Of a stretch of DNA of 64,000 nucleotides, positions 53,808 through 55,565 are shown one piece after another. This stretch comes from Methylobacter sp. (GTDB lineage Bacteria > Pseudomonadota > Gammaproteobacteria > Methylococcales > Methylomonadaceae). Made by a program: the position numbers and the translations under genes. The stretch lies in contig JAUXXQ010000101.1 of NCBI GenBank assembly GCA_030684815.1, forward strand, positions 1-64,000. Direction: 5' to 3'. The notes beneath the pieces were generated by a model that worked only from the letters and a program-made list of their open reading frames with translations, was not told the origin of the DNA and ran no database searches. Within the stretch, counting starts at the first letter, position 1, and each line of letters begins with the position of its first letter.

Positions 53808-55352
53808 TCAAACATCGCCTTTTTGCGGATGCCGACGTTGGTCGGGGCTGTGCAACTTATTCAGGGCGTTGATATAAGCCTTGGCCGAGGCGATCACAAT
53901 ATCGGTATCTGCGCCCAAGCCGTTGACGATGCGGCCTGCTTTTTCCAGGCGGATGGTGACTTCGCCCTGCGCATCGGTGCCGTTGCTGATGCTGTTCACC
54001 GAATACAGCTCCAGCGCGGCTTCCGACTGCACCAGTTTTTCAATGGCTTTCAGGCTGGCATCGACAGCGCCGCCGCCGCTGGCTGTGCCGGTGACTTCTT
54101 TATTGTCCAGCCGTAGCGTCACCGTTGCGTTGGGAATTTCGCCGGTTTCCGAACACACTTTCAACGCAATCAGTTTGACGTGTTCATCTTCCGCCTCAAA
54201 TCCGGCTTCCGAGATCAAGGTTTGCAAATCTTCATCAAAGATTTCGTGTTTTTTATCGGCCAATTGCTTAAAGCGGGCAAAGGCCTCGTTCAATTCTTCT
54301 TCCGAACCGAACTCAAAACCCAATTCGGTGATGCGGCTTTTGAACGCATTGCGGCCGGAATGTTTGCCCAATACCATGCGGTTAGCAGACCAGCCCACAT
54401 CTTCGGCGCGCATGATTTCGTAGGTTTCACGGCTTTTCAAGACGCCGTCCTGATGAATGCCCGCTTCATGGGCAAAGGCATTAGCGCCGACGATAGCCTT
54501 GTTAGGCTGTACCGGAAAGCCAGTGATAGACGACACCAGTTTCGAGCAAGTCAAAATTTCGCGGGTGTCGATCCCGGTTTGGCAGGTGAATACGTCTTTA
54601 CGGGTGCGCACCGCCATCACCACTTCTTCCAGCGACGCGTTACCGGCGCGCTCGCCCAAGCCGTTAATCGTGCATTCGACCTGGCGTGCGCCGTTCATGA
54701 CCGCCGACAGCGAATTGGCGACCGCAAGTCCCAAATCATTGTGGCAATGCACGGAAAAAATCGCTTTGTCCGAGTTGGGGATACGGCGGATCAAGTTGGC
54801 AATGGTGGCGCCGAATTGTTGCGGAACGCTGTAACCTACAGTATCCGGGATGTTCAGTGTGGTGGCACCAGCGTCAATCACCGCTTCCAATATCCGGCAC
54901 AAAAAGTCTTCTTCGGAACGTCCGGCGTCTTCCGGCGAAAACTCGACATCATCGGTATATTGCCGCGCGCGTTTGACCGCTTTCACTGCATACTCAATCA
55001 CTTGTTCCGGCTGCATCTGCAACTTCATCTGCATGTGGATCGGCGAGGTGGCAATGAAGGTGTGGATACGCGAGCGGTTCGCACCTTTCAGCGCTTCGCC
55101 GGCGCGGTCGATGTCTTTGTCCAAAGCGCGGGCTAATCCGCAGACCGTGCTGTCTTTAATGACATTGGCGACGGCCTGCACGGCCTCAAAATCGCCGGGA
55201 CTGGCAGCAGGAAAACCAGCCTCGATCACATCGACTTTCAGCCGTTCCAGTGCCTTGGCAATACGAATTTTCTCATCGCGGGTCATCGACGCACCGGGGC
55301 TTTGCTCGCCATCGCGCAAAGTCGTATCAAATATTATTAACTTGTCATTCAT
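53808..55352 (-). CDS. leuA: 2-Isopropylmalate synthase
   Basis: The 514-residue enzyme commits 2-oxoisovalerate and acetyl-CoA to leucine synthesis. [13 protein letters not shown] holds the metal Asp and catalytic Arg; [13 protein letters not shown] and the C-terminal regulatory domain (leucine feedback) follow. ATG 55352 ([10 protein letters not shown]) has GGAG 6 nt upstream. It follows pssA after a 220-bp gap that contains a leader peptide rich in Leu codons, implying attenuation control. Confidence 0.96.
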
Positions 55353-55442
55353 AAAAACTCCATTCATGGAGAAGCATCAACGCTGACGTTGAATTAGGAA
55401 AGTAGGGGGATTTAATTTAAGTGGAAAGAAGATAAATGCCCA

Positions 55443-55529
55443 TCAGGGCAAGAATCTTAAAAGCAGGCACAACCACGCAGATAAAGCGTTAACACTGTTT
55501 TGCAAGGCATGATTGATATAAATAAACAT
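55443..55529 (-). CDS. Candidate leucine leader peptide upstream of leuA
   Basis: A 28-codon frame that begins ATG at 55529 and ends WLCLLLRFLP then TGA, with Leu at five of eight consecutive codons (TTG, CTG, CTT, TTA, TTG). The stop codon sits in the loop of a TGCCC/GGGCA hairpin followed by TTTATCTTCTTT. TGCC inside the Leu run could pair with the same GGCA instead. These are the parts of a ribosome-mediated attenuator. The frame begins only 8 bp past a promoter -10 box, so it may be translated from a leaderless or slightly different start. Confidence 0.45.
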   Translation of the reverse strand: MFIYINHALQNSVNALSAWLCLLLRFLP

Positions 55530-55536
55530 GGTCGTG

Positions 55537-55565
55537 ACTATACGCCAATGGCTGTGCGGCCTCAA
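55537..55565 (-). promoter_or_regulatory. Promoter candidate for the leader peptide and leuA
   Basis: Reading the minus strand, TTGAGG and TATAGT are 17 bp apart, just beyond the pssA stop. Transcription would begin near 55530, at the first codon of the leader frame. This is the best sigma-70-like pair in the pssA-leuA gap. Confidence 0.45.

Follow-up and report, generated by a model that had tools for sequence, protein, structure and literature searches.

In the gap between pssA and leuA of the aerobic methanotroph Methylobacter sp., a short leader ORF rich in Leu codons precedes the gene for 2-isopropylmalate synthase. This leader probably controls leuA as a ribosome-mediated leucine attenuator, a reading to which we assign a probability of about 0.6, and it probably senses leucine shortage. 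The unit lies within the window, the 64,000-nt stretch of DNA that was analysed, and its elements are listed in Table 1.

Table 1. Elements of the leader unit and its neighbours in the window
Feature	Position	Strand	Remarks
pssA end	55573	-	upstream side of the pssA–leuA gap holding the leader unit
-35 element TTGAGG	55560..55565	-	promoter scan; TTGAG in 19/19 genus leaders
-10 element TATAGT	55537..55542	-	17 bp from the -35 element, 7 nt before the leader ATG
Leader ORF, MFIYINHALQNSVNALSAWLCLLLRFLP	55443..55529	-	28 codons, ATG 55529, TGA 55445-55443; probably leaderless translation
Terminator-like unit	55423..55458	-	outer stem around hairpin A, then T-rich tail CTTTCC
Outer stem of the terminator-like unit, AAGAT/ATCTT	55458-55454 / 55433-55429	-	MFE and centroid prediction
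Hairpin A, TGCCC-TGAT-GGGCA	55437..55450	-	loop holds the stop codon; fold and scan
G-poor, C/T-rich spacer	55372..55436	-	possible Rho loading region; read from sequence
Small hairpin CTCCATGAATGGAG with the leuA Shine-Dalgarno	55358..55371	-	predicted fold and scan
leuA (2-isopropylmalate synthase)	53808..55352	-	start probably the second ATG, 55352

An earlier note on this DNA had described the leader frame, the C-terminal end WLCLLLRFLP of its peptide, a TTGAGG-17 bp-TATAGT promoter and a stop-codon hairpin with a T-rich tail, and each of these was recovered in place. The leader frame is also open as a 40-codon version from a TTG start in the ORF list, where leuA begins at 55367. The leuA start is most likely 55352, since for many homologues the alignment begins no earlier than about residue 4–8 of the longer ORF, and the distance from the leader stop to this likely start is 90 nt. 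The promoter match is weak on its own, as 0.7 ± 0.9 such sites are expected in shuffles. The scan found two terminator-like sites against 0.6 ± 0.6 expected, and the leader RNA folds better than its own shuffles (z −3.2; 1 of 200 shuffles was equally good). A stem between the start codon and the Leu codons, predicted for the window alone, is absent from the genus consensus fold and was discarded. We regard conservation, not the promoter match by itself, as the main evidence that the leader is real.

Close LeuA matches were found in 22 of the 23 genus genomes; G006 has distant paralogues only, and L001 and the LeuA-like paralogues L024–L031 were excluded from the counts. The promoter TTGAG...TATAGT-N7-ATG, together with an intact Leu-rich frame ending in LP-stop, is present in 19 of 22 genus leuA upstreams by this promoter-based reading and in 16 of 22 by strict Leu counting. 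The earlier note had named a lack of conservation of the frame and Leu run beside leuA in close relatives as one ground for rejecting its proposal, and in these 19 loci both are conserved. The remaining three upstreams (L015, L019 and L022) lack the promoter–leader unit and have pssA–leuA gaps of 102, 99 and 67 nt, respectively. Genus leader frames are 28, 31, 33 or 35 codons long, and the length changes preserve the frame. Hairpin A occurs in 19 of the 19 sequences of the genus alignment, and pssA stands before leuA in the majority of the genus loci and named records inspected.

Leu columns were followed in an alignment of 21 leaders, 19 from the genus and two from neighbours. All 21 leaders have Leu at the two columns closest to the hairpin, and the other four columns hold Leu in 13–19 of 21; certain distant Leu codons are swapped for Q or P in L011, L012 and L016. 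RNA stems that share the same bases may partly account for the constancy of Leu24 and Leu27. A further neighbour, L034, was omitted from the alignment because its promoter-adjacent ATG opens a different, 9-codon frame; its Leu-rich frame begins at a later ATG. Differences by codon position in the leaders were 0.165/0.194/0.235, with 680 synonymous and 1782 nonsynonymous codon differences, compared with 455/2045 and 434/2130 in the shifted frames. The third-position excess is modest and in the expected direction. The distance from leader to leuA is not fixed, since six genus members (L010, L011, L012, L013, L016 and L020) carry about 50–105 nt more; in some of these the extra stretch includes a repeated ATTGCCGAG-like segment.

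The spacing of the promoter bears on how the leader is translated. TATAGT stands exactly 7 nt before the ATG in all 19 genus leaders. Of the 98 leaders outside the genus, 51 carry a −10 box (≤1 mismatch) 3–10 nt before an in-frame ATG, mostly at 6–8 nt, and by this rule a near −10 box is absent from the remaining 47; for the other ATGs of these regions the figure is 48 of 1094. In none of these 51 leaders was a Shine-Dalgarno-like site found between the box and the leader ATG. With the −10 box so often 6–8 nt before the ATG and no Shine-Dalgarno site between them, the leader ORF is probably translated leaderless. These spacings support the earlier suggestion that the ATG sits at the predicted transcription start.

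To follow the leader beyond the genus, 211 leuA upstreams were gathered from the genus, named records and a class sample, and 201 were kept once 10 duplicates of the last 150 nt had been dropped. In the class sample, 63 of 185 genomes had no LeuA at E ≤ 1e-200, and 12 of the 122 with LeuA were not included. An ORF with an ATG start and at least four Leu among its last 12 codons is found in 143 of the 201 distinct upstreams, compared with 15–26 in ten dinucleotide shuffles and 21 on the reverse strand. When the stop codon must also fall within or next to a hairpin loop, 114 of 201 remain (genus 16/22, named records 39/78, class sample 59/101), against 1–6 in the shuffles and 2 on the reverse strand. 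A Leu-rich leader with a stop hairpin before leuA is not a chance arrangement. What recurs is a conserved short ORF with a Leu-codon run directly before a leucine biosynthesis gene, and together with the 19 of 22 genus upstreams these counts support the earlier proposal of a leucine attenuator before leuA that is unlike enteric leuL.

The stem of hairpin A varies between relatives with its pairing retained (CTGCC/GGCAG, TTGCCC/GGGCAA, TGCGCC/GGCGCA and CTGCGCC/GGCGCAG). Stem pairing seems to be more important than the peptide, because the TGCGCC/GGCGCA stem and its longer CTGCGCC form give a peptide end of RR instead of LP. Between families, likeness lies mainly in the Leu-rich end and the hairpin, and by eye the N-terminal parts differ. 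In the betaproteobacterium Cupriavidus campinensis (L252), a Leu-rich ORF at 443–604 (...SSSLLLDLPTGCRA) also stands before the other LeuA type, which hints at a broader use of leader ORFs.

The Leu codons crowd towards the hairpin. Among the 98 leaders outside the genus, Leu frequency is 0.81 at the second and 0.88 at the third codon before the stop, 31–69% at the fourth to eleventh and 0.16 at the twelfth. Because these leaders had been selected by a rule of four or more Leu among the final 12 codons, the levels are biased. The gradient itself is not forced by this choice, though a CTGCC-type stem fixes part of it. The footprint of a ribosome extends roughly nine to ten nt past the A site. 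With that footprint, a stall at Leu24 hides the outer stem plus the initial 5′-arm bases of hairpin A, and a stall at Leu27 hides its 5′ arm and loop. This geometry fits direct occlusion of hairpin A by the ribosome.

The proposed attenuator would work as follows. The promoter in the pssA–leuA gap would start a transcript with the leader ATG as its first bases, and the conserved spacing suggests that leaderless translation begins once this RNA emerges. With ample leucyl-tRNA, the ribosome would translate up to the UGA within the hairpin A loop and then depart, so that hairpin A and the outer AAGAU/AUCUU stem could fold ahead of the U-rich tract and RNA polymerase would terminate about 100 nt from the start. 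With scarce leucyl-tRNA, the ribosome would wait with Leu24 (UUA) or Leu27 (UUG) in the A site; judging from the geometry, its footprint would block hairpin A and leuA would be transcribed. The stalled ribosome would then itself be the antiterminator, making an alternative RNA hairpin unnecessary. Since a ribosome at the stop codon also covers the hairpin, the fed state would need ribosome release before polymerase passes the U-tract.

A U-tract was scored where, in the 16 nt that follow hairpin A, some 8-nt window held five or more T. It is present in 16 of 16 genus leaders tested and in 14 of 98 outside, and at least five of the 14 are Methylococcales. In Methylobacter, hairpin A therefore resembles an intrinsic terminator. 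As a mechanism common to all the leaders, intrinsic termination is excluded, because 84 of the 98 leaders outside the genus have no U-tract. Their lack of it also favours Rho-dependent attenuation, in which a leader ribosome, stalled or at the stop, would mask a Rho loading region, poor in G and rich in C, that lies beyond hairpin A; when leucine is present the ribosome would leave, Rho would halt transcription before or early in leuA, and hairpin A would serve as a pause site or spacer. In the 60 nt after hairpin A, the 16 genus leaders have a mean G content of 8.5% and a C/G ratio of 2.85, with C exceeding G in 16 of 16, and C exceeds G in the post-hairpin region of 87% of the 98 leaders outside the genus. 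There, however, the C excess is mild (C/G 1.48) and near that of loci with no leader call: from −100 to −30, the 98 leader loci have C.278 and G.229, compared with C.256 and G.245 at 58 loci without a call. The genus hairpin does have a U-tract, and the spacer is just about 90 nt long. Rho-dependent attenuation is, in our judgement, unlikely but deserves to be weighed.

Many relatives carry a further RNA element between the leader and leuA. A hairpin CCY-GRCG-RGG is found in 58 of the 201 upstreams (57 by a stricter stem rule), and the linker before ACGY is most often four nt (32/58). The search placed no constraint on the fourth stem pair, which is intact in 52 of 58 sites (shuffle mean 27, maximum 38) and is represented by all four Watson–Crick types. 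When the loop was left open, 52 sites had the loop GGCG, followed by ACGC (44), ACGT (6) or ACGG (1), and five had GACG, followed by ACGT (5) and never ACGC (0). These combinations are as predicted for pairing of loop RCG with CGY (G-C or G-U, A-U, never A-C); the other two loop pairs are invariant and were fixed by the search pattern. The hairpin with CGY occurs at 57 loci, that is 57 of 179 upstreams outside the genus, and is absent from the window and its genus (0 of 22 upstreams). A Leu ORF was called at 56 of the 57 loci, and the other one, L083, lies at a contig edge and shows the ORF end. One or two sites, for example L216, may be chance; loci that carry the pseudoknot include L055, L058, L064, L071, L085, L086, L106, L124 and L174, and the pseudoknot alignment (A1) holds 40 of 42 loci. 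Sorting the 98 stop-hairpin leaders from outside the genus by pseudoknot and U-tract gives 43 with the former, 14 with the latter, 3 with both and 44 with neither. The covariation points to an H-type pseudoknot between the Leu leader and leuA in many Gammaproteobacteria.

The exact pseudoknot pattern gave 24 matches in 22 of the 185 class genomes, compared with 3 for a reversed-pattern control, and 19 of the 24 lie directly upstream of LeuA. Of the five others, three are inside ORFs of 121–477 aa, one is an orphan leader and one has no leader ORF. The orphan (L221; G104:C96:3000-6500, site 1429) combines a Leu leader, stop hairpin and pseudoknot with no leuA ORF in the 2 kb that follow, in a genome that also carries a leuA-linked copy (L194); it could be a free-acting RNA or a relic. 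At L222 (G085:C1, near 2285385), a pseudoknot-like site follows a strong hairpin and no leader ORF was seen; the next ATG frame has 41 codons and is not LeuA. A covariance model (R1) run on 398 genomes of the phylum gave 13 matches at E ≤ 0.01, under strict filters that may have lost true matches. A LeuA motif accompanies only the match in G105; the other 12, whose loci lack the motif, are probably chance.

A classical attenuator of the enteric type would require the Leu codons, or the 3′ arm of hairpin A, to pair with another segment on stalling. Its loop-borne stop codon makes hairpin A similar to the protector hairpin of trp and leu leaders, the genus fold places another, weak hairpin over the Leu codons, and strong pairing of the Leu run occurs at a few loci outside the genus (L146, L175 and L095). 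The statistical tests, however, found no conserved antiterminator or mutually exclusive pairing. Outside the genus, an apparent antiterminator signal between the Leu run and downstream sequence (z −6.7 by simple swaps) was gone with GC-matched partners at the 98 loci (z −0.20, s.e. 0.12), and was weak against own-sequence shuffles (−0.35, s.e. 0.10); the positive control, arm against arm, gave z −8.1. The 3′ arm of hairpin A showed no excess pairing with downstream sequence (−7.00 own, −6.98 swapped), and within the genus neither the Leu-run nor the 3′-arm test gave an excess. Two-sided change is seen in just 1 of 15 pairs of the genus fold, and the comparison with Rfam described below gave no match. 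These results make an enteric-type switch distinctly improbable.

The earlier note had also proposed that TGCC within the Leu codons competes for the GGCA of the hairpin. Counted in the 33 nt before the hairpin, TGCC is present in 16 of 19 genus leaders, which agrees with the proposal and with a classical attenuator, but in only 31 of 98 leaders outside the genus and 2 of 9 other Methylococcales tested, so that this competition is not a family feature. Pairing of the Leu codons with the leuA Shine-Dalgarno is likewise not conserved in the genus or, with GC-matched partners, at the 98 other loci; L146 is the single locus that has it.

The Shine-Dalgarno could instead be controlled directly, held in a CTCC...GGAG hairpin that leader translation opens. 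A pattern search found a palindrome over the leuA Shine-Dalgarno in 14 of 22 genus upstreams, and the hairpin appears in the predicted fold. The ~50–105-nt insertions of six genus members, however, part the leader from the Shine-Dalgarno, and the palindrome persists in L015 and L019, which have no leader, so we consider translational control of leuA very unlikely. That the ORF encodes a peptide with its own function and that regulation is incidental is hardly credible: the orphan copy L221, with no leuA ORF in the stretch examined, speaks for it, but the families are alike mainly in the Leu-rich end and hairpin, their N-termini differ by eye, and the leaders are found directly before leuA.

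Direct occlusion of hairpin A thus remains the preferred reading for the window. A wider reading, which we hold at even odds, is that the leader belongs to an unnamed class of leuA control RNA across Gammaproteobacteria, consisting of a leaderless Leu ORF, a stop-codon hairpin and often a pseudoknot, mostly with no U-tract. Such RNAs would act by occlusion of one hairpin, with the pseudoknot acting on polymerase or Rho and no antiterminator, and Methylobacter would have made the stop hairpin into an intrinsic terminator. If this is true, leucine attenuation in many non-enteric Gammaproteobacteria is built unlike the textbook leuL, without an antiterminator, with a leaderless start and with the sensing codons merged into the hairpin, and the leader offers a compact leucine sensor. 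The covarying pseudoknot of the relatives would be a concrete new RNA element whose function is testable in cultured relatives.

The layout of the E. coli leu leader serves as the enteric comparator. Like the enteric leuL of E. coli/Salmonella and Shewanella, the present locus has a Leu-rich ORF before leuA and, on our reading, ribosome-mediated control of the transcript. In contrast to the enteric leader, the Leu codons here adjoin the hairpin, the stop lies inside it and translation probably begins leaderless; neither an antiterminator nor a matching Rfam model was found. Mycobacterial amino-acid leaders are leaderless short ORFs with runs of the regulatory codon, but for another amino acid and in another phylum, and we know of no stop-codon hairpin in them.

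Neither the window nor 20 relatives gave an Rfam match at gathering. At E ≤ 10, the window matched a snoRNA model alone, on the other strand (E 9.7). A permissive search of 12 loci gave three sub-gathering matches, two microRNA models in L215 and anti-hemB in L152; the latter spans the L152 leader region at 22.0 bits, compared with a gathering threshold of 49.5 (E 0.11).

A search of the literature outside subscription found no description of the gammaproteobacterial leader or pseudoknot form. A terminator, antiterminator and anti-antiterminator are described for the Shewanella leuA attenuator in the accessible part of that paper (PMC2659441). The accessible portions of papers on the Corynebacterium leuA leader (PMC4046766) and on leuL pausing (PMC9291695), and of PMC2965389, contain no gammaproteobacterial form. 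For Streptomyces lividans, leuL1 is given as leaderless and without a typical terminator, in the part of the paper available (PMC8079986).

As far as the available text of Seliverstov 2005 (PMC1262725) goes, the nearest published analogue is the actinobacterial LEU element, which is differently built. It shares with the Gammaproteobacteria a Leu-run ORF before leuA, a pseudoknot and the missing typical terminator. Its Leu codons are said there to pair with the leuA Shine-Dalgarno; the window has neither this actinobacterial pairing nor the CCY-GRCG-RGG-n-ACGY pseudoknot. Of seven actinobacterial LeuA loci, three (L245, L247 and L249) have a Leu-run ORF and four have none by the same rule, and the gammaproteobacterial pseudoknot is not among the sites listed for the seven. 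By eye, the Leu codons of L245 and L247 are able to face the leuA Shine-Dalgarno, and both loci have a long hairpin. Taken together, these comparisons suggest that leucine attenuation of a known kind has here a new build, with the Leu run fused to a stop-codon hairpin, a probable leaderless start, no antiterminator found and, in many relatives, a pseudoknot.
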